Virus record (IMG/VR): IMGVR_UViG_3300042894_002372
Span: 16,421-80,420 of that record
Strand: one strand, 5' to 3'
From: a virus
DNA: 64,000 nucleotides
Below the pieces are notes generated by a model, which was not told the DNA's origin, made no database searches, and saw only the letters and a program-made list of their open reading frames with translations. This document shows, piece by piece, positions 9,383-49,488 of this stretch; within the stretch, counting starts at the first letter, position 1; every line of letters starts with the position of its first letter. The position numbers and the translations under genes are program-made.

Positions 9383-9835
9383 TTAAATTTTAATGTTAAG
9401 ATTGGGACGAGAAATTTCATATTTGATCAAAGCGCCGTTCTCGCCATCCTCGGCCACTTCAATCCACACTGCACGGTCAGGATACCGAGCGGCAATTTGT
9501 AAGTACAGATCATCGCTGATCATTTCACAACTCTTAAAGTTCAGTTCCAGTGTTCCGCCTGCGTAGAGATTCTCTAGCCAGCGTTTAAACTGAATAAATT
9601 CAATGTCACGATCGTTGTGAAATACATTAATCCAAACACGGAAATGAAAGATATGTCTATGCGGCACGCCAAGAAAGCTGACATCATACTCGTCACCTGT
9701 GGCCAATGCAGGATCATCTGCGGCAGCCGGATACTTGTGGATGCCTTCTTTGCGGAATGTGATCCAGATTTTTCTTTCTGCCTGGTTCATGATTCTAATA
9801 GATTGTTCTACCAGTGCCTGTTCTCTTTGTGTCAT
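9383..9835 (-). CDS. Conserved phage protein, possibly T-fold-like (150 aa)
   Basis: No function is recognised. The segment HRHIFHFRVWINV (about 56-68) and the later SCEMISDDLYLQIAARYP and VWIEVAEDGENG stretches alternate strands and helices in a way that loosely recalls T-fold enzymes such as QueD or QueF. The His-x-His-x-x-x-x-Arg is suggestive but no catalytic set can be assigned. The ATG overlaps the end of the radical SAM gene. A TATAAATC element lies near 9855 upstream. Confidence 0.55.
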   Translation of the reverse strand: MTQREQALVEQSIRIMNQAERKIWITFRKEGIHKYPAAADDPALATGDEYDVSFLGVPHRHIFHFRVWINVFHNDRDIEFIQFKRWLENLYAGGTLELNFKSCEMISDDLYLQIAARYPDRAVWIEVAEDGENGALIKYEISRPNLNIKI

Positions 9836-10965
9836 AAATTACTCTCTATAGATTTATATACGTCGGGGAAAAGTTGTCTACTATTTAGATTTCTGCGATC
9901 ATCAATGTTTTTTAATGCGTCAACAAATGTTACACTAATTTGTTCAGTATTTGCAAGACTTTTGACAACATTTTGATAACCAGTTATATTGGAATAATCT
10001 TTTTGTTGCATACGCTCAATCACTTGATTTCGGTACTCAACACTTAGACCTTGAGGATCAAATGGTCCAGGACCTGTACCGTTATGGTATACTGTTAATG
10101 AAGCTGTTTGGAGTCGGAATCCTTGATCACGTAACCAATCAATTGTGTTCCAAACTGACATTGCATTCAAAGAGAGAAAAACCATATTAAACGAAATACA
10201 ATGTAACGGAACGTCACGTTTGAGTTGCAAAAGATTATTTTCAAACTCTGTCCATTTGCCCGGCCAACGCAGGTACTCGTATTCGACACCAGTAGCATCA
10301 AAACTAACCAACCATCTTACATTAGTCATGTTAATCAAACGTTGGTAAATCTTAGTATCGGTATTCAGTAAATTTGTATTAATTAAAAGTTTACAATCAG
10401 GATTGCGAACAGCAAGTTCATCAAGTAATAGTTCGTTTTCCTTCATTAGCAGCGGTTCGCCGCCAGCTAAGTACACTTCTTTTAAAGATTCTACGTTGTC
10501 TAGCACGTATTTCAAAAAATTGTTTTTGTCTCTGCGCTCAATTTTAATAGTGCGCCCAAGTTCTTGTGCCCACAGCGAACTAACAGTAGGATGACAATAC
10601 ACACAGGCCAGGTTACAAGTATTACTCCATCGTGCATCTAAATACCTAAGATCAAACGTCCCAACTTGATATATAGAATCATCCTTGTTAGGAAAATTCT
10701 GTAGCATGTTTACTTGCAGGGTATTTAGTCCGCCATCTATTCCGCCATGACACCAAGCACAACCAGGCACAACCTGATCGTTCAACATACTACGTTGAAT
10801 GTTAATATTGGTTGGACCAGTTAGCATTTCCGCAACCGAATCAACTTCATCTAAATTGCCAAGATTGTTGCGGCCAACACAACAGTTATCTACTCGTCCA
10901 CTAGGTTCAACATAGACACTAATCCATGGCGCCGGACAAAAATTCTTATTGCCGGGATCGATCAT
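9832..10965 (-). CDS. Radical SAM protein of the twitch/SPASM-like type
   Basis: 377 residues. The radical SAM cluster motif is CNLACVYC near residue 117, followed by a Gly-rich SAM motif YLAGGEPLL near 165. An extra N-terminal Cys-containing part (FCPAPWISVYVEPSGRVDNCC and CAWCHGG) resembles a displaced auxiliary-cluster segment seen in phage twitch-domain proteins. The reaction is unknown. It is coupled by a 4-base overlap to the 179-residue gene upstream, itself coupled to the DpdA-like gene, so a role in base modification is possible but unproven. It is too large, and carries extra Cys clusters, to be a typical QueE. Confidence 0.8.
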   Translation of the reverse strand: MIDPGNKNFCPAPWISVYVEPSGRVDNCCVGRNNLGNLDEVDSVAEMLTGPTNINIQRSMLNDQVVPGCAWCHGGIDGGLNTLQVNMLQNFPNKDDSIYQVGTFDLRYLDARWSNTCNLACVYCHPTVSSLWAQELGRTIKIERRDKNNFLKYVLDNVESLKEVYLAGGEPLLMKENELLLDELAVRNPDCKLLINTNLLNTDTKIYQRLINMTNVRWLVSFDATGVEYEYLRWPGKWTEFENNLLQLKRDVPLHCISFNMVFLSLNAMSVWNTIDWLRDQGFRLQTASLTVYHNGTGPGPFDPQGLSVEYRNQVIERMQQKDYSNITGYQNVVKSLANTEQISVTFVDALKNIDDRRNLNSRQLFPDVYKSIESNL

Positions 10966-21477: not shown

Positions 21478-22183
21478 TTTTTATCGCCTCTCGATAGCTG
21501 TTTACAACCAAGTGATTCCACTCTGGGTTGCGCCATGCGCCGTGTACAATCATGTGGAATCGATCAGTATCACTGTTGTTATGTACTGCATGCTGATAGT
21601 GGTTGTTGAACAAAAATACACTGCCGCTATTTCTAAAAGGCACAGTGCCATGTATGTTGGTTAGTCTGCAATCCTCTGGATTGTTTAGAGAAATGTTTAC
21701 AGCGGCACCAGGGGTATTGTTTACATTGTCGCTATGGGGTGCAATGTATCCTCCAGGTTCGACCAACATGTATCGTAGTCGTTGATATTGATTGTACGGA
21801 AACACATCTTTAAAAAATTTCACAGTAACCGGGCACTGATCTTGTATTTCAGTCCAATTGTACTTGACTTTGTCAGGATCTAGGCCATATGTCTGCGGAA
21901 CATTAGTCATTGTAGCACCGATGCCATGTACAGCCAAACTACGCCAGCCCTTCATTCCCGCTTCTTCGCCGCGATGGAATACAAACATGTCTCGCAAGGC
22001 CTGTGCTTCTTGGTACATTTCTGCGTAGGGTGCGTCAATACCAAGAATTTCTAGCCACGGTGCTTGACTGTGTTTTAAAATCCAATCAGCTTGGAAATGC
22101 ACATCGCCTTCTGGAAGTGGCAACAACTCAAATGTATTCTTATCATTGTATTGATCTAAAAATTCTTTAATCCACTGTTCCAT
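21470..22183 (-). CDS. Aspartyl/asparaginyl beta-hydroxylase-like 2OG oxygenase
   Basis: 237 residues. His-x-Asp in YIAPHSDNVN near 147, distal His in NNHYQHAVHNNSD near 195 and Arg in TDRFHMIVHG near 207 give the full 2OG-Fe(II) set. The nearest recognised family is aspartyl/asparaginyl beta-hydroxylase. Substrate unknown. It overlaps both its neighbours, the radical SAM gene upstream and the other oxygenase downstream. Confidence 0.75.
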   Translation of the reverse strand: MEQWIKEFLDQYNDKNTFELLPLPEGDVHFQADWILKHSQAPWLEILGIDAPYAEMYQEAQALRDMFVFHRGEEAGMKGWRSLAVHGIGATMTNVPQTYGLDPDKVKYNWTEIQDQCPVTVKFFKDVFPYNQYQRLRYMLVEPGGYIAPHSDNVNNTPGAAVNISLNNPEDCRLTNIHGTVPFRNSGSVFLFNNHYQHAVHNNSDTDRFHMIVHGAWRNPEWNHLVVNSYREAIKNG

Positions 22184-23246
22184 TGCTTATTTCCTTGTTG
22201 TTTAACACAGTGTTTAACACTTGTCTTTCCCAGTGTTGATACTTTCTACCACAATGAGAATCACACAAGATTAATCTGCCATCTTTGTATTTTTCTATTT
22301 TCCAACGTTCTTCAATTTGATTGAACCATTCTGTTGCGGCTTCAATTCCTATTTCGAGTGCATTGTTGTTGACATGGTCCACAATGGTCTTTAGTTGTGT
22401 GTGGACCAGATCGTACCAAGGTCCATCCATAAATGTACGGGGAAATGCACCAAGATAACAGCAAGGATACACTTCTCCATTGGCAGCAATAAAAATAGTT
22501 TCACTGCGATTGCTGTAACAATCCAGTGTTTCTTTTTCTTCTGGCGGCAGCCGTGGAGTTGTATGGTCTTTCCATTGTATTATTTGATCAATAGTGCGTG
22601 GCCCATTGCGGTCATCAACAATGCCTAAGATATGTGTCATATTTCCATGGCGGTCAAATGCTGGTCCGTAGTCCCGACCGTGATCAGTAAGATCAAATCT
22701 ATAAAACCCCAAGATTTTAGCCATGTCGCGACAGGCATCAATTTGATGCAAGTTATGTTGAAATTTAATCATTTTCCACACAGCACTACTGCCATTGGAC
22801 ATTGCCGTCTGCGCATTGCGAATGATATTTTGCCAGTTAGTGTCTACTCTATACATGGCATGAGTGTCTTCAAGCCCGTCAAGATCAAATATTATTTCCA
22901 CATTGCACTGACCAATGCGTGTCCAGAATTCTCGATCTCTGGCGCTGCCATTGGTATTGATTGTGATTCTAGTGGAGGGATTAACACTACGGAAGTACTC
23001 AACAATTTCCACAGCGTCTGGTGCCATTATGAAATCGCCAAAGTTGCCGCAAAAATCAATAAGCCTTAGTTGTCGAATAAAATCAACAGGAAATATCTGT
23101 TTTACTTGTTCCAGTGATAAAGATGTTTCAGGATACCCAAAGTTGTGCGGATATCCGTTTGCATTTCTTACACACAATGGGCATCGTGCGTTGCAAAGTG
23201 TTGTGAGTTCTAGGTGTATCTCTTTAACATTATCGATGGTGATCAT
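22167..23246 (-). CDS. SPASM-type radical SAM protein (359 aa)
   Basis: The cluster motif CNARCPLC lies at residues 18-25. The C-terminal part has the auxiliary-cluster Cys pattern LDCYSN, GEVYPCCYLG and LCDSHC. SPASM enzymes often modify peptides or sugars. It is transcribed with two 2OG oxygenases, so a combined modification pathway is possible. No good Shine-Dalgarno is seen before the ATG, and the leader is highly structured. Confidence 0.8.
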   Translation of the reverse strand: MITIDNVKEIHLELTTLCNARCPLCVRNANGYPHNFGYPETSLSLEQVKQIFPVDFIRQLRLIDFCGNFGDFIMAPDAVEIVEYFRSVNPSTRITINTNGSARDREFWTRIGQCNVEIIFDLDGLEDTHAMYRVDTNWQNIIRNAQTAMSNGSSAVWKMIKFQHNLHQIDACRDMAKILGFYRFDLTDHGRDYGPAFDRHGNMTHILGIVDDRNGPRTIDQIIQWKDHTTPRLPPEEKETLDCYSNRSETIFIAANGEVYPCCYLGAFPRTFMDGPWYDLVHTQLKTIVDHVNNNALEIGIEAATEWFNQIEERWKIEKYKDGRLILCDSHCGRKYQHWERQVLNTVLNNKEISNGTVD

Positions 23247-25941: not shown

Positions 25942-26382
25942 TTATGCCCTCGCGTCCTTCAAATAACTTTTCAGTTGCCACTGATACTTGCCGTGTTGGC
26001 TTTGGCGTTCTGCGGCAAAGTTTGCAATGTCTTCACGACCTTCGGCAGCACTGGCTTCGAAAACTTGGCGGCTAAGGTTGATCATTATTTGGGTGTCTGC
26101 GAGTAATTCTTCCAGCATCAAGCGAGCACGTGGCACTTTGGTTTGATCCGGTATCTGTGTTAGTTCTAAAAAGCGGCTGAGACTGCCAGGGGCATATTCT
26201 TCTGTGGTGCGGATGTATTCAGCAATGGGATCTATAGCATCAAACGCATCTTCGTAGATCTTAGATAAAAACTTGTGCAATTCACCAAAGTCTGGCCCTT
26301 CCACATTCCAATGAAAATAGTGTGCCTTCAAATAGTACGAAAATGTACTGGCCAAATAGGTCTTTAGTAAATCACTTAACAT
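25942..26382 (-). CDS. dps: Dps-like ferritin (DNA protection/ferroxidase)
   Basis: 146 residues. The Dps signature is in KAHYFHWNVEGPDFGELHKF (19-38). Relative to E. coli Dps the ferroxidase residues are kept at the same spacing: His24 and His36 (12 apart), Asp51 and Glu55. The Asp of position 67 is replaced by Ser40. Dps dodecamers oxidise and store iron and bind DNA. In a phage, and placed among probable packaged proteins, it could protect DNA in the virion or after entry. It overlaps the 66-residue tagged gene by 11 bases. Confidence 0.9.
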   Translation of the reverse strand: MLSDLLKTYLASTFSYYLKAHYFHWNVEGPDFGELHKFLSKIYEDAFDAIDPIAEYIRTTEEYAPGSLSRFLELTQIPDQTKVPRARLMLEELLADTQIMINLSRQVFEASAAEGREDIANFAAERQSQHGKYQWQLKSYLKDARA

Positions 26383-26572
26383 TTGTTTTCCTTGCTTTCT
26401 TTCTCATACTTTTCGGGGTATTGGGAAAAGGGTCCGTGGTATATTTACCAGAAAAGAAACTATCGGGATTTCTTGACTGCATGCCGCCCATGGGCATGGC
26501 CACAGTGGCAACGCTACCACTACTGGTGGCACCAACGGATGCATTTTCTTTGATAAATTCCTGAGCTCTCAT
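26372..26572 (-). CDS. Small capsid-targeting-tagged protein (66 aa)
   Basis: Starts MRAQEFIKEN, matching the T4 internal-protein tag pattern with a FI-K-E site. The rest is Gly/Ser-rich then basic (ASVGATSSGSVATVA, then KSMRKKARKTN at the C-terminus), which suits a DNA-bound internal protein. The ATG is four bases from the next gene's stop region. No enzyme function expected. Confidence 0.6.
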   Translation of the reverse strand: MRAQEFIKENASVGATSSGSVATVAMPMGGMQSRNPDSFFSGKYTTDPFPNTPKSMRKKARKTNVK

Positions 26573-29775: not shown

Positions 29776-31268
29776 CAGCAGTTCCAGCGACGACGTGCTT
29801 TACAGATGGCCTTGTCTGGCGTTTTGGCACATGAAATACTGTGCATCTTCATTTGTCCGCGACTGCGGCTACAATAACTCTTTCTACGCTTGCTGGCCTT
29901 GCTACCCCGCTTTAGTTTGCTGGGTTTGGTAGTCACAGCAGTCTTTAGTTTAGAACCAGGATTCTCTCTGCGATAAGCATTCACAGCCTTTTGACTCATG
30001 CCTGCAGTACGATCTCGTTTGTTGGCCTTTTGCCAGTCTTCGTTCAGTTGCGAAGTCACAGCAAACGCATACAGTTCATCTTCGGTCAGGCTTTCTAGGT
30101 CCTCCCATACTGCTTCAGCATCTACACCATTTTGTTCAGCAATGCCTTCGATAATAGATTCAATAAGATCAAACTCTTCTGTCAAGCCTTCTTCAGCATT
30201 GGGTTTGTCACGGAGTGGGCCGCCTGTGACCCAGGCATCGCAGGTTCTACGGCTGGCACATTTGAATTTTAAGAACTTACAATAACCCATCTCACCTGCA
30301 TCAATTACACCGGCTGCATCCGCAGGAGAGTCACTGTCGATGCCTTGAGCAATGCAGTCCAGGGTGTGTTGACGTATATCAAAAGCCGCACAGTTGCCGC
30401 ATAGGCTCGACTTGGCTTCGTCTACTGAGTCCAAGTTCCACTCATCAACTTTTTTCATCCAGAACTTAGTGTTGGGCATGTCTGGATTTAGCGGCCCATA
30501 GCCATAGTCATCAATGGCTTTTTGTCTGTTCTTGAGATTGAGTGTAATGTCTTGTGTAGCAGGCGGGCACTTGTTATCAGAGTCTTCTACTATGCTTTCA
30601 GCAGACACACAGTTGGGAACCTGACGGCCACCTTTGTTCTTCATGCCCTGTTGTTGATAACCGTCCCAGCATTTTTCATCCAGTTGTGCTTCCGCCGCCC
30701 CTTGTTCATCTATGCTTTCTCCAGTACCTACGTTATGTCTAAATTCAATGGCCTTAGTATCTGTGTTGTATATTGTAAAGTAAGTGTTTGGATCGTGCGT
30801 TTCTTTGGCCATTGATTTAACAACTTCAAAAGCTTCGTTTTTAGTTAATACTTTTGAAGATACATCTTTGCTGTTGATATAAACTTTATAAACTCTATCC
30901 CGGCCACTATTTAAATTCAAATCTCGATTTACTCCTAGTCTTTCGTCAGGAGATAATACTTTATTTTTAAACCAACGGAACAATAACCAGAAGAAATAGG
31001 ACATAGCAATGCCATTGACTACCATTTGGGCAACATCGTTAAAGCCTTCCGCCACACCTTCTGATTTGTTGCCATAGTTGCCCGCACCTTTTTTGCGACA
31101 CTGTACCAGTCGACCGGATGCATAAGCACTGGGCCATACTTTTGCACTAGCCTTGACCTTGTAGTAGCAGGCATCTTTCTTTTCCATCAGATCTGAATAT
31201 TCAACCACAGGTCCACCACAGTGCGGACAAGTGTGTTGTGATTCTGTAATGATATCTTTTATGTTCAT
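29775..31268 (-). CDS. Cys-rich mosaic virion/cargo protein (497 aa)
   Basis: N-terminus MNIKDIITES gives an I-T-E site. Modules in order: a zinc-like CPHCGG segment; KVWPSAYASGRLVQCRKKG; GVAE (about 69-72); one hydrophobic segment MSYFFWLLFRWF; a small W-I-type module; GAAE (about 190); CWDGYQQQGMKNKGGRQVPNC; a Cys-rich block LCGNCAAFDIRQH...YCKFLKFKCASRRTCDAW; then acidic GLTE/GIAE sites and a basic C-terminus SYCSRSRGQMKMH. These modules recur in aquatic phage proteins without known function. Probably packaged and cut by the prohead protease. Confidence 0.55.
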   Translation of the reverse strand: MNIKDIITESQHTCPHCGGPVVEYSDLMEKKDACYYKVKASAKVWPSAYASGRLVQCRKKGAGNYGNKSEGVAEGFNDVAQMVVNGIAMSYFFWLLFRWFKNKVLSPDERLGVNRDLNLNSGRDRVYKVYINSKDVSSKVLTKNEAFEVVKSMAKETHDPNTYFTIYNTDTKAIEFRHNVGTGESIDEQGAAEAQLDEKCWDGYQQQGMKNKGGRQVPNCVSAESIVEDSDNKCPPATQDITLNLKNRQKAIDDYGYGPLNPDMPNTKFWMKKVDEWNLDSVDEAKSSLCGNCAAFDIRQHTLDCIAQGIDSDSPADAAGVIDAGEMGYCKFLKFKCASRRTCDAWVTGGPLRDKPNAEEGLTEEFDLIESIIEGIAEQNGVDAEAVWEDLESLTEDELYAFAVTSQLNEDWQKANKRDRTAGMSQKAVNAYRRENPGSKLKTAVTTKPSKLKRGSKASKRRKSYCSRSRGQMKMHSISCAKTPDKAICKARRRWNC

Positions 31269-31699
31269 TTTTTAGTTCCTTTTGTGCTGACATTTATTGC
31301 TGGTCCTGAACGATTGGCATTGGGATCTTTACGGCGTTTTCTGGCTGCGGCACTGGCCCGGCCTTTTTTACCCAGAGCATGTGCTTTGGCCTGTGGCAAA
31401 CACTTGGGTTTGCCTTCTGATTCCGACCCTCGAGCACAGTCACCACGTATTTTACCGTCGGGTCCAAAGCGTACCCATTTGTCTTTGAACCAGTCACGAA
31501 GATTTTCATTCACGTGTGTGTTGGCATGTGCCTCACACATGCCACATGTTTCACACACCATTTCCATTTCAACTGATTCGTTCTGTTTTCGTTTACCGGC
31601 ACAGTGCGCCTTTTGTGAGAAGCCTCGAGGGTGGCTGCAATTGATACTGCTTTTGTATTTTTTGCTCCACTTTTCGAATACAAACTCACTTGCTTTCAT
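31265..31699 (-). CDS. Capsid-targeting-tagged Cys- and Lys-rich protein (144 aa)
   Basis: Starts MKASEFVFEK (tag with V-F-E site). Two recurrent phage modules follow: SSINCSHPRGFSQKAHCAGK, and a DWFKDKW...CARGSESEGKPKCLPQAKA part. The C-terminus is very basic (RASAAARKRRKDPNANR), which suits DNA binding inside the capsid. A late motif precedes it within the upstream gene. No enzyme recognised. Confidence 0.55.
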   Translation of the reverse strand: MKASEFVFEKWSKKYKSSINCSHPRGFSQKAHCAGKRKQNESVEMEMVCETCGMCEAHANTHVNENLRDWFKDKWVRFGPDGKIRGDCARGSESEGKPKCLPQAKAHALGKKGRASAAARKRRKDPNANRSGPAINVSTKGTKK

Positions 31700-32763
31700 T
31701 TTTTCTTACCTCGTCTCATATTTAGTTGCCACTGTGCCATCCTGCGGCGTTCACCTGTGCTGGATCCAGCAATCTTTTCCAGTTGGCCCAAGGTGGCTTT
31801 TTTAGGAATCCCTACTCGCTTGCTCAAGCCCTTGCGTCCAGGATTCTTACCATCTGCAAAATTCTCTGCTACACCTTGCTTGGGAATCAACAATTCAGGC
31901 ATACGATACTCACTGACATCTACTGGATATGGCTGTAGTGATGCTTTGTATAATTCAGCATATTGTTCTTGTTCTTCAGGTGTCTTGGCTCTGTAAAACT
32001 TGTTGGCAATGGCCATGTCGCCTACTAAAGTTCCTGGTGGAATTGAAATCTTTTTTGGACCATAGTATTTTAATTTGTCAGAATCTTTGTTGGTCAAACT
32101 GTAAAAGGTTGATTCCCATTTGTCTGGATGCAGGGCATATTGTGCAGTTGCTCTTTCTGGCACAAACTCTGCAAGTGTATCTGCACCAGGATGAAATTTA
32201 CCTAACTTGGATAAACTTATAGCAGTATCATTGCTTTCGCCTTCCGCCACACCTTGTGGGCCCTGTTCAACAGCTACATAAGCAGGACCGGTATAACCAT
32301 CTGGATACTTATGAAAGTGCTGAATAGTTCTATGCCAACCTTCTAGCAAATCATAACCATCGGGACGTTTAACAAGTATCACAGGTTCTCTACGAACACC
32401 ACCTTGTTGTTGTGCTAATGCCGCTTGAGTGGCATGTCTTTCTTTGTCTTTTGGAACACCCATACCTAAATCACTACTCCCACCGGCACGGCCTATTAAT
32501 AGTTGTTTAGTCTTTGGATCAAACATATCCATTGTAAACTTCATATCGGGTATCAGTTGCCATTTAGTGTTAATAGTAAGACCTGCACCTTGCACTTTTT
32601 CTATAATGCCGTTTTTAACAGCGTCTGCAGGGAGATTACTAAAATTGCCTTTGTTGGGTACTAGCCAATCTTTAAGGACATACTCAGGCCAAGTGGGCAA
32701 CAGACTCTTAACATATTGTAATAGTCTATCTCTATATTCGATTAAAAATTCATTGGCTCGCAT
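31696..32763 (-). CDS. Capsid-targeting-tagged protein with ParB-like domain (355 aa)
   Basis: Starts MRANEFLIEY (L-I-E site). A ParB/sulfiredoxin-like core is seen in REPVILVKRPDGYDLLEGWHRT near residue 135-155. GVAE sites follow near 177 and 298. The second domain (FVPERATAQYALHPDKWES to DVSEYRMPELL) is unrecognised; the C-terminus KNPGRKGLSKRVGIPKKATL...GERRRMAQW is a basic module recurrent in aquatic phages. ParB-like domains may act as nucleases or CTP/ATPases; here it could be a delivered effector. Confidence 0.6.
   Translation of the reverse strand: MRANEFLIEYRDRLLQYVKSLLPTWPEYVLKDWLVPNKGNFSNLPADAVKNGIIEKVQGAGLTINTKWQLIPDMKFTMDMFDPKTKQLLIGRAGGSSDLGMGVPKDKERHATQAALAQQQGGVRREPVILVKRPDGYDLLEGWHRTIQHFHKYPDGYTGPAYVAVEQGPQGVAEGESNDTAISLSKLGKFHPGADTLAEFVPERATAQYALHPDKWESTFYSLTNKDSDKLKYYGPKKISIPPGTLVGDMAIANKFYRAKTPEEQEQYAELYKASLQPYPVDVSEYRMPELLIPKQGVAENFADGKNPGRKGLSKRVGIPKKATLGQLEKIAGSSTGERRRMAQWQLNMRRGKKK
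31718..31725 (-). promoter_or_regulatory. Late motif before the 144-residue gene
   Basis: CTAAATAT on the minus strand, 18 bases before the ATG at 31699; a GAGG Shine-Dalgarno follows. Confidence 0.45.
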
Positions 32764-40356: not shown

Positions 40357-41031
40357 TTATGATTTTATGATCTGAATTGTGTTTTTTATCAAGCCGGGAT
40401 ATACCAAACTCAACATGGTCATCCAGCCAGTGTCCGTGTGATCCACAAAATAATACGACTCAGTCCAGCCTCGCCAATTAGTGTGCAATGTCCAGTCCTT
40501 CAATCCCGGACTTAATCTAATGCCTTCTTGCTTTTTTAACAAGTTGCTGATTGATCGTTTTTGCTGTTCGTTTACCACCACTGATCTCAAGTAGGTGCGA
40601 TGCGTGTATGCAGATTCTTTAAGACAGATAGTGTCTCTGGGACGATCAATCACTGCTTGTGTGTAGGTTAGATAACTAAGCCCTGACACTGTGTCTGTTA
40701 TTTCAGAGAACAGTTCGGAATCATTGGTGTACACACGTACTTGATTGTATTCTATCACCACTTTGTGTTGATATTTGGTGTTGATCAACACATCACACAT
40801 GCTGTGTAAATTTTTTACCACGTCATCTGTGATGGCCCGGTTTGCAGAATAGTAGTCTTGTAGTTTGTTTACCCACTCTCTACGCACTGATACAACGTGA
40901 TCAATTGCATCATGGTCAAGTTTACGCAGGCATCCTGCTTCCCGCAGCCGGCCATACATGCAGTATCGGTATTGATCGTAAAACAACCGATCTTTACTTA
41001 CATCATTGAATGTTGGGATTGAATTGGTCAA
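40357..41031 (-). CDS. Unknown protein linked to the ClpA gene (224 aa)
   Basis: No domain recognised; the type is known from T4-like marine phages. Aromatic-rich N-terminus (DQYRYCMYGRLREAG), central strands (YQHKVVIEYNQVRVYTND), and WTLHTNWRGWTESYYFVDH near 180. The gene overlaps the ClpA 3' end by 29 bases, so it is probably expressed with it. Confidence 0.55.
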   Translation of the reverse strand: MTNSIPTFNDVSKDRLFYDQYRYCMYGRLREAGCLRKLDHDAIDHVVSVRREWVNKLQDYYSANRAITDDVVKNLHSMCDVLINTKYQHKVVIEYNQVRVYTNDSELFSEITDTVSGLSYLTYTQAVIDRPRDTICLKESAYTHRTYLRSVVVNEQQKRSISNLLKKQEGIRLSPGLKDWTLHTNWRGWTESYYFVDHTDTGWMTMLSLVYPGLIKNTIQIIKS

Positions 41032-43285
41032 TTACAATGTATCCTTCGTCATTGACAACAGGTATGGTCAATGTTGATGTGGTTGTGAATTCCACTGCGT
41101 CATTGACCATACTGGCATGAATTGCACAGTCAGCAATTTGATCAAACAAGATGCGCTTGCTCAATGGTACACGGATCAGTTCGTCAATCTTGCGACCCAA
41201 TGGACGAGCACCCATCTTGGGATCGTAACCCTTGTCTGCCAGCATGTCGATCACATCTTCAGCAAAGGTAAGACGAATGTTCTTGCTCAACAATGTTTCT
41301 TGCAACTCTGCTGTGAACTTGACCACAATTTTCTTGATGGCCAATTTGTCCAACTTGTTGAACTTGCACACTTTGTCAATACGATTACGCAGTTCAGGCT
41401 TGAAGAACTCTTTCATGGCACGATCTTCTTCGCCAGATTTTTCTAATGATTGACCAAAGCCAATGTTGTTGTTTTCATTGTCTCTAGCACCCAGGTTCGA
41501 AGTCATTATAATGATACAGTTCTTGACGTCAACTGATTTACCACTGCTGCCGGTGATCCGGGCCTCGTCCAGCATCTGCAACATGATGTTGACCACATCC
41601 GGGTGTGCCTTTTCAATTTCGTCAAACAACAGGATACTGAACGGGTGCTTGGAAATATCGCTGATCAACTTGCCACCACCCACATTGCCGTCATCAAAGC
41701 CCACATATCCCGGTGGCGCACCAATCAAACTGGCAATGCTGTGCTTCTCTTGGAACTCACTCATGTCATATTTCAGCAGGTGCATGTCGAGATTTTTACT
41801 CAGCAGTTTGGCCAATTCTGTTTTACCTGTGCCGGTTGGACCCAGGAACAAGAAACTGGCCACAGGCTTTTTAGCATTGCCAATGCCGGAGAAGTTGATG
41901 TAGATACGTTCTAGCACAGTGTCAATGGCTTCGTCTTGTCCGTACAAGAACTGCTTGATGTTACCTTCAAGTTCAGTGACTTTGGTACTGCGTTCGTTTT
42001 GTAATCTATCCAGTGGAACTCCAGTGACACGACTGAGTTGCGCCATAATCATGTCACGGTTGATAGTGACTGTGCCTAGGTCTTTGACACGTTCTCCAGC
42101 ACAAGCGCCATCCAACAGGTCAATTGACTTGTCAGGATTCTTACGATCATGAATGTAGCGTCCACTTAGTTCCACAGCCGCTGTCATTGCTTCTGTGTCA
42201 ATTAGCACATTGTGGAATGTTTCTAACCGGGGGCTAATGCCAATTAAGATTTGTTCAGTGGTTTCTGCATCGGGCTCACCAATGTTGACTCTGTGGAATC
42301 GACGCATCAACGCACGATCCTTTTCAAACGATTCGTAGTATTCTTCCCAAGTAGTTGATGCAATGACCTTGATGTTGCCTTTGGTAATGGCCGGCTTGAT
42401 CATGTTGGCAAAGTCCAAACTGCTGGAGCCACTGGTGCCAGCACCCATCATGGTGTGTGCTTCGTCAATGAACAAGACACAGTTCTTTTTGGTTTCCAAC
42501 GCGGCAATAACGTCCTTGAACTTTTCTTCAAACTCTCCGCGATACTTTGAACCTGCTAGTAAGGATCCAATCTCTAATCCCCAAACTTCAGAGCCTTTAA
42601 GGAACTCTGGAACACGACCTGCGTTGATCTCCTGTGCAAGCCCGTCGATGATGGCCGTTTTGCCCACACCTGGATCGCCTACCATGAGTACATTGGCCTT
42701 GAACTTGCGAGCCAACACAGTGATCATTTCTTCAAGTTCAGTGGCTCGACCAATCATTGGCTCTAACTTGCCGTCGGTTGCCATCTTGCTTAGATTTGTA
42801 CAGTGTTGATCCAGTATCTCGTTTGCACTTTCGTTGCTGAGACCTTTTTCTGGTGCGCTGTGATTCTTTTGGTAGAACTCAGCAAACTCAGTTTTGTGAA
42901 CGCCATACTTCAACAAGAAATAGTGTGCATGACTGTTGTTTTCTGCCATCATTGCTAGATATAAATCCAACAGTGTAATTGATCTGCGTCCGGTAAACAG
43001 CACCTGTGTTAAAGCACGATTAAACATACGCTCAAGGCCATTTGTTTTGCGTGGTGTGTAATCTTCTTTGCTGGTTAGTAAACTAACCTGCGATAGGATA
43101 TATGCACTGAGTTCGCCTTCAAACTGTTCAACGGCTGTGCCGTATTTGATCAACACCGATCGAAACGGTGCGTATTGAATCATGGCCATCAATACATGTT
43201 CAGTTATTACATAAGCATGGTTGTGGGCTTTGGCAATAGCAACAGCATTGTTGACAATCTTTTCAATTTCAGGATTATTTTGCAT
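41003..43285 (-). CDS. clpA: ClpA-type AAA+ unfoldase
   Basis: 760 residues. ClpN-like helical domain (1-150), AAA-1 with GDPGVGKT near 195 and LFIDEAHT near 265, AAA-2 with LGPTGTGKT near 495 and LLFDEIEKAHPD near 565. The segment NIGFGQS near 622 lies where ClpA/ClpX carry the IGL/IGF loop that docks ClpP. No ClpP gene is visible in the window, so this unfoldase may use host ClpP. A consensus-like sigma70 promoter precedes it, so expression is probably early. Confidence 0.9.
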   Translation of the reverse strand: MQNNPEIEKIVNNAVAIAKAHNHAYVITEHVLMAMIQYAPFRSVLIKYGTAVEQFEGELSAYILSQVSLLTSKEDYTPRKTNGLERMFNRALTQVLFTGRRSITLLDLYLAMMAENNSHAHYFLLKYGVHKTEFAEFYQKNHSAPEKGLSNESANEILDQHCTNLSKMATDGKLEPMIGRATELEEMITVLARKFKANVLMVGDPGVGKTAIIDGLAQEINAGRVPEFLKGSEVWGLEIGSLLAGSKYRGEFEEKFKDVIAALETKKNCVLFIDEAHTMMGAGTSGSSSLDFANMIKPAITKGNIKVIASTTWEEYYESFEKDRALMRRFHRVNIGEPDAETTEQILIGISPRLETFHNVLIDTEAMTAAVELSGRYIHDRKNPDKSIDLLDGACAGERVKDLGTVTINRDMIMAQLSRVTGVPLDRLQNERSTKVTELEGNIKQFLYGQDEAIDTVLERIYINFSGIGNAKKPVASFLFLGPTGTGKTELAKLLSKNLDMHLLKYDMSEFQEKHSIASLIGAPPGYVGFDDGNVGGGKLISDISKHPFSILLFDEIEKAHPDVVNIMLQMLDEARITGSSGKSVDVKNCIIIMTSNLGARDNENNNIGFGQSLEKSGEEDRAMKEFFKPELRNRIDKVCKFNKLDKLAIKKIVVKFTAELQETLLSKNIRLTFAEDVIDMLADKGYDPKMGARPLGRKIDELIRVPLSKRILFDQIADCAIHASMVNDAVEFTTTSTLTIPVVNDEGYIVIDQFNPNIQ

Positions 43286-43314: not shown

Positions 43315-43343
43315 ATTATACAGCAATTTGTTTTATATATCAA
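43315..43343 (-). promoter_or_regulatory. sigma70-type promoter of clpA
   Basis: Minus-strand TTGATA (43338-43343), 17 bases, TATAAT (43315-43320). The dnaJ TGA stop lies inside the -35 box. AAAAGGA follows before the ATG. Confidence 0.85.
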
Positions 43344-44119
43344 GAGGTAATTGTTCGTTTTTGCTCTATCATGTCCAGCAGATCTTTTGGTATGTCTTTG
43401 GGAATCACTGCCTGTATTTGAACCAGCATGTCGCCGGGACCTGTGCGTCCGGGCAATCCTCTGCCACGTAATCTCAGTCGAGCGCCAGGCTGTGTGCCTT
43501 TTGGCACAACAATGGTTATCTCGTTGCCCAGCAAATCTTTAACTACAGTTTCGGTGCCTAGTATAAGATCCCAGATGTTTACTTCGTGGTCAGTTAACAG
43601 ATTTGATCCTTGTCGACCCCAGGTTGAACTGGCAGCAATTCTAAAAGTTATCACAAGATCACTGCTGTGTGGACCAATGCCCCGGTACTGAACGCTGTCG
43701 CCATCGTTGATGCCCACAGGAATTTCTATTTCTACTGTAGACGCACCAATGCCAATTGTGCGTTTGCCACCTGTTGCTACATCTGCCAAAGTAATAGTTA
43801 AGTTTGCACGACTGACTGTGGGCTGGTGGCGTTGTTGACGCTGTCCAAACTGTGTGCCAAACACATTAAAGATAGTATCAAAATCAAACTGTGGGCCACC
43901 TGCCGGATTAAAGTTGTTGAACTGTGGTCTGGGATTGTCGTACTGTTGTCGTTTGGCACTGTCGCCTAGGGTGTCATAAGCGGCTTGTATTTCTTGAAAC
44001 CGGGCAGTGTCTCCACCTTTGTCTGGATGATGTTGGCTGGCCAACTTACGAAAAGCCCGTTTGATTTCATCTTGCGTGGCAGTTCGGCTCACGCCCAAAG
44101 TTGAATAGTAATCTATCAT
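43340..44119 (-). CDS. dnaJ: DnaJ/CbpA-type J-domain co-chaperone
   Basis: 259 residues. J domain (1-60) with the HPDKGG motif; a Phe/Gly/Gln-rich linker; C-terminal client-binding domains ([36 protein letters not shown]). The Cys-rich zinc region of DnaJ type I is missing, as in CbpA. It recruits host DnaK. The ATG follows directly on a T-run of a terminator; the mRNA comes from a promoter embedded in that hairpin. Confidence 0.92.
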
Positions 44120-44399: not shown

Positions 44400-45023
44400 T
44401 TATCCAATCATTACAGCCGAGTACAATGTGTACCTGTCTTTATTTATATTGCGTATATTGTGCAGTGTGCCAGCACCGTTGAGAAACATGATGCCTTTGT
44501 TACGTTGGCCGGTCATGGTGTAGTATGGTTCTGGTGAAGTGATATCAAACAGTTCAGTTCCAGTATCGTTGTCAGTTAAATTAACAATCATCTGTAGAAT
44601 AATGTGATTATTATCACAGTGCAGAGATGTAGCAAATCCGGGTGCATCATAATTTATAACAGTTACAGTCTTTGCACAATCAACATAGTAATCAATATCT
44701 CTGTACCAGAGCTTTCTAAAATAACCCTTGCCTGTATCCGTGTCTACTAGAACAGCGGCACCAAGAAATTCTGCACATTGCCGGCCTGGCACCTGTAGTA
44801 TTTCTTTCAACATGTCTGACGTGCAATCCATGCGACACTGTTTTCGTTGGTGACTGATAGCTGATGTTGTATTATCAACCCAGATGTCTGTGCAAAGTAA
44901 TTCATTTGAACAATCAGGAGCATCAACTAGTTCAACTTCCCAAAACACATTATCATACATGCCATTTAAGTGGCTTGGCTGTAGCACTTCGTGTATGCGT
45001 CGTTGGCCTAGTTGTATATGCAT
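44400..45023 (-). CDS. 2OG-Fe(II) oxygenase-like protein (207 aa)
   Basis: The start at 45023 (TGATG overlap with the holin stop) is preferred; the longer frame upstream is a shadow of the holin gene. His-x-Asp is in SLHCDNNH near 138, and a distal His plus Arg in GAGTLHNIRNINKDRY near 183-198. It resembles prolyl-4-hydroxylase-type oxygenases. Substrate unknown; one of four such genes in this window. Confidence 0.65.
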   Translation of the reverse strand: MHIQLGQRRIHEVLQPSHLNGMYDNVFWEVELVDAPDCSNELLCTDIWVDNTTSAISHQRKQCRMDCTSDMLKEILQVPGRQCAEFLGAAVLVDTDTGKGYFRKLWYRDIDYYVDCAKTVTVINYDAPGFATSLHCDNNHIILQMIVNLTDNDTGTELFDITSPEPYYTMTGQRNKGIMFLNGAGTLHNIRNINKDRYTLYSAVMIG

Positions 45024-45550
45024 CAGCGTTCCGGGAACGGTGGAATTACAGGTGCTGTCTTGCCACCCCAGCCTGTTATTATTTCTGTACTCGCTGCCGC
45101 TCCAAATCCTGTTGACGTGCTTGCAAATCCTGCGTTTGAAGGTTGTGATCCCCAGGCGTGTGTGACTGTTGTTGCTGTTGGTGCACCAAACGTACCAAGC
45201 CCGGACTGCGGTGTTGATCCAGGTATTTGATATGTTGAACCGACATTCGATGGTAAGTTGATTCCGCCATTGTTGGCTCCTCCTAGTTTTTCTTGTGTAC
45301 GACCATAGGCTGCAATGCCCAACACAGCACCCATGGCAATGTGATACAACCCAGCGCCTTGCAAGGTAATAGGTTGCCACTGAATGTTGACCTGTCCTTT
45401 TGAAAGGCTTTGTAGCACTGACCACAGCACTGGAAATATCACAAAGTCAGCAATACAGGTCAACATGTAACTCCATCCCATCATGGGACGCCATTTTGAA
45501 TTCATCCAGTCTTCTTTTTTCTTTTCACTCTCACTCATTTTTTGTGTCAT
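45023..45550 (-). CDS. Holin, 3-TM type
   Basis: 175 residues. Helices: MGWSYMLTCIADFVIFPVLW (24-43), a hydrophobic HIAMGAVLGIAAYGR segment near 70-84 and an amphipathic region between. The Gly/Ser/Thr-rich tail (90-175) is of low complexity. The layout matches 3TM holins of T4-like marine phages; it should release the endolysin by holing the inner membrane. The cassette order supports it. Confidence 0.75.
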   Translation of the reverse strand: MTQKMSESEKKKEDWMNSKWRPMMGWSYMLTCIADFVIFPVLWSVLQSLSKGQVNIQWQPITLQGAGLYHIAMGAVLGIAAYGRTQEKLGGANNGGINLPSNVGSTYQIPGSTPQSGLGTFGAPTATTVTHAWGSQPSNAGFASTSTGFGAAASTEIITGWGGKTAPVIPPFPER

Positions 45551-46232: not shown

Positions 46233-46850
46233 TTATGCTCCTAGTATATGTAATGCGTGTTCAGTGTGCTTGATGCGATCTTCTAAGCCAATATAGCCAC
46301 CGTTGATGGCTCGTGTTAGTCCCTTGGTATCATTTGCATCAGCAAATCTATTTAAGTTATTTTGTTCCCAAAAGAAACAAGCACTCTGTGCGGCACCTTC
46401 GAATGTGGCCAGGTACTCGGCAGCTTCTTCTACTGAAATGCCTAGTGATCCTGCAAAAAATGTGTAGTTGTCTTTGCCGGTCAACTGAATAAGTCCACGA
46501 CCACAAAAACGCCAGCCATCGCCTGATGTTTCGTCGCCGTTGCCCATGCGATTGGCATACACTCTGTTGGCAATGCGCTCGGGTTTGTTGGCGTATTGTT
46601 GTGCTAGTTCTGCTGTGGGGAAATACTTTTTAAACACCGTCATCAAACTGGCGGCCTTGTAGTTTAGGTTTTCTTTGATAAAAACAAAATTGCCCGACTC
46701 GTGTGCGCACTGTGCCACAAAGTGTGCCACACGCAGGGGTGTGTTGATTTCGTAATCATCCAACAACTGGTCCAGTGCTTCGTGCCAGTGCGTGATATGG
46801 GGGTTCTTGACCATTTGTTTTAGTTGGTCCAGTGCTAGTATACTACTCAT
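46233..46850 (-). CDS. GH19 endolysin (chitinase-type muramidase)
   Basis: 205 residues. GH19 signatures: FVAQCAHESGNF (catalytic Glu, near 51), FCGRGLIQLTGKDNY near 112-126, and a Trp/Asn-rich FFWEQNNLNRFAD near 160. It cuts peptidoglycan at lysis. No signal peptide, so it needs the holin. An AAGGAG Shine-Dalgarno with a late motif TTAAATAC upstream (46868-46875) marks the leadered late kind. Confidence 0.9.
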   Translation of the reverse strand: MSSILALDQLKQMVKNPHITHWHEALDQLLDDYEINTPLRVAHFVAQCAHESGNFVFIKENLNYKAASLMTVFKKYFPTAELAQQYANKPERIANRVYANRMGNGDETSGDGWRFCGRGLIQLTGKDNYTFFAGSLGISVEEAAEYLATFEGAAQSACFFWEQNNLNRFADANDTKGLTRAINGGYIGLEDRIKHTEHALHILGA

Positions 46851-46890: not shown

Positions 46891-47535
46891 TTACCGCCCA
46901 GTCCACACCCAGGGATCATTGATAATTGGTGTACCGTCAGATCGTTGCATGAAATTGCCACCGTGCATATCCCAATGATATCCCCGGGATTTGCCAAGAT
47001 TAAATAGTTCGTCAAGAGTACTAACCATCAGTGGCATTCTCTCGGCACCCAATTTTTTCTCTAGTACCGCATACTCGTTTGGCTGATTTCTTTGCATGGA
47101 GTTCATAAACCCCTTCACAGTGAGAGCTTTGTATTGATGAAGCCAACTCCTAATCAGACGACCTAGGTCATCCAGGGCAAATCTTATTGGACCCTGAGTC
47201 TTTTTCAATGGCTCGGTTCGTATCATTAGATAGCGATTGTTGCCCCACATAAAACTGTCATGGCCATAAAATCGCGGCAACAAGGGATTGTTGCTGTGGT
47301 TGGTACAGTAGTCGTACCAGGTAAAAAACATCTTTTGATCAGGACTAAAGTCCTTTTTTCCTTGGGTGCCAAATATCTTCAACACCAAGCCGGTGCTGGG
47401 TTCTAAGTATGCCGTTTGGTCCACACCCTTGCCCAGATATTGATAACCCTTGGCTTCCAGTGCAGATCTGATGCCTTTGTCTGTGGTTGAAAATTCTTCT
47501 AGATTCTGCTCGTCGATAAATTCCTGCGATCTCAT
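46891..47535 (-). CDS. Capsid-targeting-tagged protein-kinase-like protein (214 aa)
   Basis: Starts MRSQEFIDEQ (I-D-E site). A kinase-like core follows: Gly-rich loop GKGVDQTAY (35-43), VLKIFG with Lys53, then HWDMHGGN with Asp189 and Asn194, and IIND with Asp207. The spacing Asp-5-Asn-13-Asp equals that of the catalytic loop and DFG Asp in eukaryotic-type kinases. It is short for a kinase, with a reduced C-lobe. It may be delivered with the DNA and act on host proteins; that is inference. Confidence 0.65.
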   Translation of the reverse strand: MRSQEFIDEQNLEEFSTTDKGIRSALEAKGYQYLGKGVDQTAYLEPSTGLVLKIFGTQGKKDFSPDQKMFFTWYDYCTNHSNNPLLPRFYGHDSFMWGNNRYLMIRTEPLKKTQGPIRFALDDLGRLIRSWLHQYKALTVKGFMNSMQRNQPNEYAVLEKKLGAERMPLMVSTLDELFNLGKSRGYHWDMHGGNFMQRSDGTPIINDPWVWTGR

Positions 47536-47813
47536 TTAACGACTCCTTCAAATATATTTTTTTGTATTCGATACCACTGTTGCCAAGCATCTGCTTTCAC
47601 AGCGCACTCATAGTATGTGCCATAGTTGATGGTTACTGTTCTAGCAACATCACTTAACACAGGTGCATCTTTTAATTTTTCTAAATTGGGACAACGTTCT
47701 AAAGAGTTTAGTCCAGGCGGATCAGGAAACCGTGCAGTAACTGGTACTGCGGTTGAGCATCCTGCAAGTGCCACAAGTGTAACTAAACTAGCTACGACAC
47801 GTTTGTTGATCAT
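47532..47813 (-). CDS. Outer-membrane spanin lipoprotein, Rz1-like
   Basis: 93 residues. Lipoprotein signal peptide with lipobox LAGC and a Pro-containing mature start (VPVTARFPDPP). Further on there are two Cys (RCPNLEK and YECAVKA). Together with the Rz-like protein at 48163 it should fuse inner and outer membranes in the last step of lysis. The position in the cassette supports this. Confidence 0.65.
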   Translation of the reverse strand: MINKRVVASLVTLVALAGCSTAVPVTARFPDPPGLNSLERCPNLEKLKDAPVLSDVARTVTINYGTYYECAVKADAWQQWYRIQKNIFEGVVK

Positions 47814-48166
47814 TTCCTATGCCCTTGACTTTCGGGTGCCATTCCCCAGGATGCATCTTCAGCGGCTTTCCGGGGCAATGATTTATAATTTTGTTTACGA
47901 TCAGCACCGTGGAACTCTCGAGCAACATCCGGACTGATGCCAACTTTCTTGGCAAACTTGGGATTGTGTGCTGCCGCTGCCATTGTACGGAATTGTGCTT
48001 GGCTAGTAGACTTTTCGTCTAGTTCTTGTTCCGCTAAGCCACCTGCGGCTGCATCTTGCGCAGACATACGAACAGTTTCTGCATCACGTTCGGCATCTGC
48101 TGCCTGTGATTCCCAACTGTCAGGATTGTCGGGTTGATCTTCAATTATAAATTCACGTGCTCTCAT
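47810..48166 (-). CDS. Capsid-targeting-tagged small protein (118 aa)
   Basis: Starts MRAREFIIED (I-I-E site). An acidic, Ala-rich linker follows with GLAE near 45, then AAAAHNPKFAKKVGISPDVAREF, a module I recognise from other aquatic phage proteins. The C-terminus is basic. It overlaps both spanin genes, so a cargo gene lies between them. Confidence 0.55.
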   Translation of the reverse strand: MRAREFIIEDQPDNPDSWESQAADAERDAETVRMSAQDAAAGGLAEQELDEKSTSQAQFRTMAAAAHNPKFAKKVGISPDVAREFHGADRKQNYKSLPRKAAEDASWGMAPESQGHRK

Positions 48167-48636
48167 TTCTTAGGTCCTTCTGCGGCATCGTTGTGTGCCT
48201 TGATAAATTCTCGGGGTATTTCACAAATGCCGCCTGGCATGAACTTGGTGTCATACTTGACTACTTCGCGGTCAACATATTGTTTTACAATCTCTGTGCG
48301 TCCACGAATGTACTTGATCGTCTCTCGGGTTTTGGTTTGTATTTCTGTGTTGGCAACAGCAGATTGTTCTTCGGCAATTTTTAACTTTGCTTCAACTTCT
48401 ACAACTTTTGCTTGCCAACGATCATCGGCGGCTTGTCCGCCCAGCATCCAGGCACCAATGACCAACAACACAACGCCTGCCAACTCAGCAGGTGTTTTGT
48501 ACAGTGCAACACCAGGAATCCAACGCACTGCTTTGCTGGCTAAAAATAGTCCAAATCCGCCTGCGGCAGCGGCCCAGGCAATGAGTACAAAAATAAAATC
48601 TGGGATTAAACTAAACATCCATGCAAGTTGCGACAT
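48163..48636 (-). CDS. Inner-membrane spanin, Rz-like
   Basis: 157 residues. Two N-terminal hydrophobic segments (FIFVLIAWAAAAGGFGLFLA and LAGVVLLVIGAWMLGG), then a periplasmic coiled coil (KVVEVEAKLKIAEEQSAVAN) and a conserved C-terminal GGICEIPREFIKAHNDAA. This matches i-spanins. A late motif CTAAATAC (48656-48663) with AAGG precedes it. Confidence 0.7.
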   Translation of the reverse strand: MSQLAWMFSLIPDFIFVLIAWAAAAGGFGLFLASKAVRWIPGVALYKTPAELAGVVLLVIGAWMLGGQAADDRWQAKVVEVEAKLKIAEEQSAVANTEIQTKTRETIKYIRGRTEIVKQYVDREVVKYDTKFMPGGICEIPREFIKAHNDAAEGPKK

Positions 48637-48693: not shown

Positions 48694-49488
48694 TTACTTT
48701 AACCCCATGCTTTTTCGTATGTTTGTGGCACTGATATTATGGGTTGATTCGTCAAATGATTCTTGTTCAATTTTATAGCCCACGTCACGTCCGTATGTGA
48801 TGTTTACAATGTTAGGAACAACCTGTATTTCGTATTGTCCTTGATACACCATGTCTAGATCTCTGCGTATATAATTCTTTACTTGTTCAATAGCAAATGG
48901 ATTTGAACCTTGCCATCCTTGACAGTCGCGAATTTGAATCACAACCTGCCCTGTTTTTGCAATGGCACGGTCAAACAGCGCACGATGGCCTGCATGCCAT
49001 GGCTGCCAACGTCCTAGCATTTGCACAGTTTCTCGTTGCCAATCAAACACAGGTCTACGACGATTATCTAAGATATGCGCGGCAATGAACTCGCCCCATT
49101 TCTCACTGTGCTGTTCTGTAATTCTAAAATCATAAACTTCAGGCGGAACAAAGGCTCGGTTAGTGTCTTCGTATCTACCTTTGTCAATGGTGTCAACCCA
49201 CACAGTCCAGTCTGCTTTGAAGTTATTGCGCATTTCCACCAAGGGAGCAACAAAGTCACAGATGACATAATCAACATCGGTCATCGTGTCTGCCAATGAT
49301 CGCATACGTAGACTTTGTCGAATACGGCCTGCTTCGCTAAAGTCCCAGTCATTGTATTCTTTACGTACATCGTCGGCATTTAACCAATGAACTCGTTTCT
49401 TTTCGTTTTGCAAATGCTCGAGTATGTGCTGTGCCAGATATGTTTTGCCGGCTCCTGGTAAGCCCATGATTAAAATACGTTGTGGCAT
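48694..49488 (-). CDS. CysC-like kinase fused to a cytidylyltransferase-fold nucleotidyltransferase
   Basis: 264 residues. N-terminal P-loop GLPGAGKT (9-16) with WLNADDVRKEYNDWDFSEAGRIRQS near 35-60, the layout of adenylylsulfate (APS) kinases. From 160 a nucleotidyltransferase domain has GRWQPWHAGHRALF (H-x-G-H) and ISATNIRKSM near 255. PAPS synthases join a sulfurylase and an APS kinase, so a PAPS-making function is conceivable next to sulfotransferase-like genes; NMN adenylyltransferase/kinase activity is the other possibility. The phosphate acceptor cannot be read. Confidence 0.7.
   Translation of the reverse strand: MPQRILIMGLPGAGKTYLAQHILEHLQNEKKRVHWLNADDVRKEYNDWDFSEAGRIRQSLRMRSLADTMTDVDYVICDFVAPLVEMRNNFKADWTVWVDTIDKGRYEDTNRAFVPPEVYDFRITEQHSEKWGEFIAAHILDNRRRPVFDWQRETVQMLGRWQPWHAGHRALFDRAIAKTGQVVIQIRDCQGWQGSNPFAIEQVKNYIRRDLDMVYQGQYEIQVVPNIVNITYGRDVGYKIEQESFDESTHNISATNIRKSMGLK

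Follow-up and report, generated by a model that had tools for sequence, protein, structure and literature searches.

A T7 gp0.7-type kinase-domain protein with a T4-like, putative capsid-targeting leader in uncultured T4-type jumbo phages

The kinase of phage T7, which is synthesised inside the infected cell, is the classic example of a phage taking over its host by phosphorylation. Its Ser/Thr kinase activity has been demonstrated, and its shut-off domain is a distinct, C-terminal one (PMC4858673). Of the phage enzymes that are packaged in the head and ejected, only a few have been studied, with Alt of phage T4 as the model. In T4, short leaders act as capsid-targeting sequences that gp21 cuts off after [LI]xE, and both Alt and the internal proteins (IPs) are ejected (PMC9026906); IPII and IPIII start with MKTYQEFIAE, and Alt with MELITELFDE. 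Kinases have further been predicted to be injected as parts of polyvalent proteins, alongside ARTs, GNATs and nucleotidyltransferases (PMC5512222). Our search of the open-access literature turned up no earlier description of a T7-type kinase targeted to the capsid, and on virion-packaged phage kinases only the polyvalent-protein prediction; the phrase "protein kinase" is absent from a survey of jumbo phages (PMC7824862).

The window analysed here, a stretch of 64,000 nucleotides, is part of an 80,420-base virus record and encodes a small kinase-like protein (Table 1), whose ATG is immediately preceded by the Shine-Dalgarno-like GAAGGAG. Comparison with its closest, 73% identical homolog (dN 0.16, dS 1.1, dN/dS ~0.15) indicates a real gene under purifying selection. 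The first-pass annotation had proposed a kinase from a glycine-rich loop, an upstream lysine and three catalytic residues at kinase spacing, and all of these are present: G35-x-G37, K53, D189-x-H-x-x-N194 and D207-P, with D189, N194 and D207 spaced by 5 and 13. The pattern exceeds chance, as it is conserved among 11 homologs collected from IMG/VR contigs, in whose alignment G35, G37, R106 and E108 are invariant and K53, D189, H191, N194, R198, D207 and P208 are at least 90% conserved. As to the DFG position, the aspartate assigned to it stands but the DFG triplet does not, the actual sequence being N-D-P.

Table 1. Features of the window discussed in the text.
Feature	Coordinates	Strand	Evidence
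Kinase-domain protein, T7 gp0.7-type	46891..47535	(-)	214 aa; PHROG 15752 E 7e-5; hhalign; conserved motifs
Tag MRSQEFIDE, capsid-targeting-type, predicted gp21-type cleavage after IDE	47509..47535	(-)	ORF-start enrichment, T4 leader match
Rz-like inner-membrane spanin candidate	48163..48636	(-)	PHROG 4952 E 1.7e-6; 1327 E 0.008
Second tagged cassette ORF, MRAREFIIE	47810..48166	(-)	PHROG 16759 E 5.5e-16; 22033 E 1.8e-9
Rz1/LysC-like lipoprotein (putative outer-membrane spanin)	47532..47813	(-)	PF23793 E 0.001; PHROG 456 E 8e-4
Endolysin	46233..46850	(-)	PHROG 181 E 3e-75
Holin, GTA 3TM type	45023..45550	(-)	PF11351 E 1.2e-6; PHROG 3427 E 1e-7
Tagged ORF, MRAQEFIKE/NASVGATSSG (slash, predicted site)	26372..26572	(-)	66 aa; post-site sequence resembles G001 gp23 site
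Tagged ORF, MRANEFLIE	31696..32763	(-)	355 aa; no Pfam family
Tagged ORF, MKASEFVFE	31265..31699	(-)	144 aa; tag motif

When the profile of the 11 homologs was aligned with hhalign to a T7-type profile comprising T7 gene 0.7 and five related kinases, the match reached 98.1% (E 1.3e-13, 152 columns), whereas unrelated comparisons, with an endolysin control and the protein P0015, gave 0.5% and 0.7%, respectively. PHROG 15752, annotated as T7-type kinase, is the best or near-best match of every homolog and is matched by T7 gp0.7 itself at 1.7e-46, and tblastn searches with relatives of the window kinase returned kinases of Przondovirus and Kaohsiungvirus. The corresponding stretch of gp0.7 reads GNG...VIKVG...FDMHSGNIMF...ITDP, with an identical 5/13 spacing of D195, N200 and D213, so that its N-terminal domain (PHROG 15752 / 2828) shares the G-x-G, the lysine, the D-x-H-x-x-N and the I-x-D-P with the window kinase. 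Judged by its sequence profiles, from which the fold is predicted, the window protein is distantly related to the kinase domain of T7 gp0.7. The earlier contrast with the T7 kinase is thus only partly apt: the kinase domains are homologous, but the window protein lacks the C-terminal host-transcription shut-off domain, bears a T4-type N-terminal tag that gp0.7 does not have, and lies in a late-gene context among lysis genes, whereas the gp0.7 gene is an early one and precedes the gene for the RNA polymerase. Because of the missing shut-off domain and the location in a lysis cassette, we class it as a kinase-domain relative and not as a gp0.7 ortholog.

The DLHxGN...DP motif occurs in non-protein kinases too, no alpha-C glutamate is evident in the window kinase, neither it nor its homologs match a Pfam protein-kinase model at E 1, and the best hits among PDB profiles are weak (SalKC-type kinase domains, E 0.5); T7 gp0.7 likewise found no solved relative by sequence among these profiles. 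All this would suit an enzyme that is tagged and ejected but phosphorylates a small molecule, a nucleotide signal or host RNA in place of proteins, for example in counter-defence; we regard such a substrate as unlikely, given that, among characterised proteins, the nearest relative is the Ser/Thr protein kinase domain of T7 (PMC4858673) and that a PADLOC search returned no defence-related family for the kinase. Still more remote is a non-catalytic pseudokinase with ATP or a host partner as its ligand; it would account for the reduction of DFG to DP and for the homolog P0003, in which isoleucine replaces K53, yet every catalytic residue is intact in the window protein, and its D-x-H-x-x-N and D-P are shared by T7 gp0.7, which is active. 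Membership in the Kinase-PolyVal family (PF18762) was considered and rejected, as one homolog alone matched it, at E 0.15 and 12.5 bits against a cut-off of 27.

As the first-pass annotation had noted, the protein begins with MRSQEFIDE, and its reading of these residues as a capsid-targeting tag gains support from the reuse of the motif, its enrichment at ORF starts and its likeness to T4 leaders. Six related records (~1.19 Mb) were searched for the motif M[KRF]x(1-2)[EQD][FIL][IVLT]x[ED], in short form M[RK]xxE[FI][IL]xE: 55 out of 1486 ORFs have it among their first 30 residues, but of 6334 internal methionines just 2 are followed by it (Fisher p 1e-37), while shuffling the first 40 residues yields a mean of 0.8 and a maximum of 4. 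Once their first 12 residues are removed, the 55 proteins fall into 36 unrelated BLAST clusters, and an alignment of 51 of them retains as conserved columns only M1, E5, E9 and one proline; [LI]xE is present in 47 of the 55 tags. In the window's 80-kb record, a degenerate DNA pattern for the tag has five matches, all at ORF starts (the kinase and four others), and its reversed control none; as the five also use different codons, selection acts on the tag peptide. Of the 13 family kinases in the six contigs, 5 carry the strict tag, compared with 50 of the remaining 1473 ORFs (p 6e-5); these counts are not all independent, since they include orthologs from G000 and G001. Tagged kinases of the family start with MRSQEFIDE, MRAQEFIDE, MRAKQFVTE, MKASEFLTE, MRANEFIIE, MKANEFITE or MKINEIIAE, two homologs (L012/G005) have the Alt-like starts MFLTELFDTE and MFLTELFENE, and some (P0004, P0007, P0008) have no clear tag.

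Relatives of the kinase were found in viral contigs at identities of 73% (L002), 35-44% (L003, L010, L019) and ~20-24% (L012, L016), and none in the bacterial genomes searched. A profile search recovered family members from every one of the 10 records it covered, the richest having four or five matches; this presence is not a frequency, as these records, identical or near-identical viruses among them, were reached through the kinase family itself. The genes often lie in tandem and inside runs of tagged genes (L003, L012, L016, L019), which in L012 and L016 comprise about ten genes each. P0015 (L016:4720-5391), which bears the tag and has a kinase-like glycine loop but no evident canonical catalytic loop, was evaluated as a further member and rejected on its hhalign result; it matches PHROG 4301, whose function is not annotated, and constitutes a second, separate kinase-like group.

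The proposed location within a lysis cassette was borne out by Pfam and PHROG matches, which place the kinase between the genes of a spanin-like lipoprotein and an endolysin. In order of transcription, the cassette encodes the Rz-like protein, a second tagged ORF, the Rz1/LysC-like lipoprotein, the kinase, the endolysin, a DUF4337 protein and the GTA-type holin; the lipoprotein gene overlaps the kinase start by 4 bp, and the C-terminal part of the second tagged ORF resembles virion structural proteins of jumbo phages (in tblastn, proteins of 121Q and PBECO4 annotated as structural). This placement is peculiar to the window virus and its nearest relative, L002, where the homolog likewise lies beside the endolysin gene, between it and a spanin-like gene. 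Together with translational coupling to the spanin-like gene, it could point to a kinase that acts late in the cytoplasm, in the timing or regulation of lysis, and whose N-terminal motif is incidental to that role. We consider this improbable, since the homologs of L003, L010, L012, L016, L019 and Rhizobium phage RHph_I1_18 lie outside lysis cassettes, mostly beside tagged genes, since the tag is common to unrelated proteins, and since T4 ipII and ipIII, which directly adjoin the lysozyme gene e, have no known lysis function. With these T4 genes as precedent, the position rather fits a late, packaged protein, and late genes linked to lysozyme have previously been interpreted as packaging candidates (PMC9503650). 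In two relatives the T4 late-promoter motif TATAAATA precedes a head-operon gene, but the 150 bp ahead of the window kinase contain no such site.

Several neighbours and other genes of the window deserve mention on their own. An APS-kinase-like P-loop domain fused to an apparent nucleotidyltransferase domain is encoded at 48694-49488 (-) and conserved in L002. A ClpA/B-like ATPase adjoins a DnaJ-like protein (41003-43285 and 43340-44119, both (-)), a gene order that recurs in L002 and in phage PA5oct (DnaJ then ClpA). Elsewhere we found a ferritin-like (Dps-type) protein (25942-26382, (-); PF00210, E 1.6e-20), with a similar protein in L003, and two radical SAM proteins with SPASM-type matches (9832-10965 and 22167-23246, (-)).

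Likeness to T4 is seen in the leader and, among relatives, in head genes. Like T4 IPII, IPIII and Alt, the window group combines a short N-terminal E[FI]IxE motif, the [LI]xE rule and unrelated cargo. The window tag differs in that it usually has 9 residues instead of 10, is carried by many more genes and lacks the aromatic residue 4 that is important for targeting in T4: of the IPIII targeting residues Tyr 4 and Phe 7, the phenylalanine matches when both are aligned on EFIxE, whereas the tyrosine position differs. The cargo also differs, being a kinase here and an ADP-ribosyltransferase or anti-restriction protein in T4. An S77 (gp21-family) protease and gp23 occur in the three largest relatives (G001, G002, G003) and in RHph_I1_18; that the protease is seen in relatives only follows from the window's 80-kb record being a fragment without head genes. 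The gp23 of the three relatives has a likely processing site of the same type, predicted from sequence, which in G001 reads LKE/NASAGSTSSG. As a separate observation, the window ORF at 26372-26572 continues after its predicted cleavage site with NASVGATSSGSVATV, resembling NASAGSTSSGNIATL of G001 gp23 as if the capsid site had been copied or had converged.

The nearest cultured type by gp23 is PA5oct (65.6%), where a small, head-operon virion protein detected by mass spectrometry (MS) begins with MKINDIITE, which weakly supports the tag reading. PA5oct and Serratia phage BF were considered as proteomics proxies and set aside; the tag is nearly absent from both (the 287-kb PA5oct has one exact match, in a protein not marked as MS-detected), so that their virion data are no direct test of it. 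The same MKINDIITE protein would also accord with a tagged kinase that enters the prohead and works there on head-assembly or core proteins, without being an ejected effector. There is little to recommend that role over the ejected kinase that we favour, because the size of the family, its tandem copies and its patchy sequence suit a host-interaction cargo better than a core assembly factor, and because Alt and the IPs, its precedents in T4, are ejected proteins (PMC9026906).

A parallel in a named phage is provided by RHph_I1_18, which has gp21 and gp23 and encodes two tandem kinases of the same family, EVB91_001 and EVB91_002. The start of the latter, (M)KSFSEHIAES, is close to that of T4 IPIII. 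The two are just 22-24% identical to the window protein, and EVB91_001, unlike the window kinase, has an additional N-terminal domain (PHROG 18642). Beside the two kinases lies a further gene (L005:1866-2567) whose product starts with MISFKSHLNES and has an LYRGHQSG stretch that, by eye, is ADP-ribosyltransferase-like; it has no Pfam match.

Among the other tagged proteins, three members match GNAT acetyltransferases (best E 0.001; one model 7e-5), and several, by eye, resemble ADP-ribosyltransferases. These are enzyme classes that were predicted for injected polyvalent proteins (PMC5512222). Like the window kinase, the Kinase-PolyVal proteins (PF18762) are predicted injected phage kinases; they belong, however, to a different kinase group and are domains of large multidomain proteins, whereas in the window group every activity resides in a small protein apart, which bears a tag of its own. 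In L012:1795-10434 and L016:2068-7650, about ten consecutive small genes each carry, nearly without exception, an M[KR]xxE[FI]IxE leader; these runs, mostly without assigned function, are a ready list of candidate injected proteins.

Sequence comparisons thus support a kinase family, the repeated use of one motif by unrelated proteins, and the presence of T4-type head genes among relatives. The reading we favour, and hold to be rather probable, is that of a capsid-targeted, probably ejected T7-type kinase that acts at the start of infection. We infer its packaging, cleavage, ejection, activity and substrates as follows. A T7 gp0.7-type kinase domain would have been turned into capsid cargo of a T4-type jumbo phage. 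Produced late, from the lysis cassette, it would bind the prohead core through MRSQEFIDE, be cut after IDE by a gp21-type protease and remain in the head. Given its short T4-type head-loading leader, the protein probably enters the host along with the viral DNA; on leaving the head, it would phosphorylate host proteins before any phage gene expression, an early action that would parallel that of T4 Alt, which acts by ADP-ribosylation.

For the group as a whole, the balance tips slightly towards a broader proposal: that a lineage of uncultured T4-type jumbo phages uses a single short N-terminal tag to address dozens of unrelated effectors to the capsid in general. T7-type kinases, of which a record may have as many as four or five, would be the identifiable cargo that recurs most, and the whole would form a modular injected arsenal for host takeover, assembled from small proteins one by one. 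A T7-type kinase with a T4-type capsid address would join two strategies in one protein and, if this is true, host targets would be phosphorylated before the first phage transcript is made. The tag also offers a simple, testable sequence rule that nominates many jumbo-phage proteins of unknown function as injected effectors, including kinases, acetyltransferases and possible ADP-ribosyltransferases.
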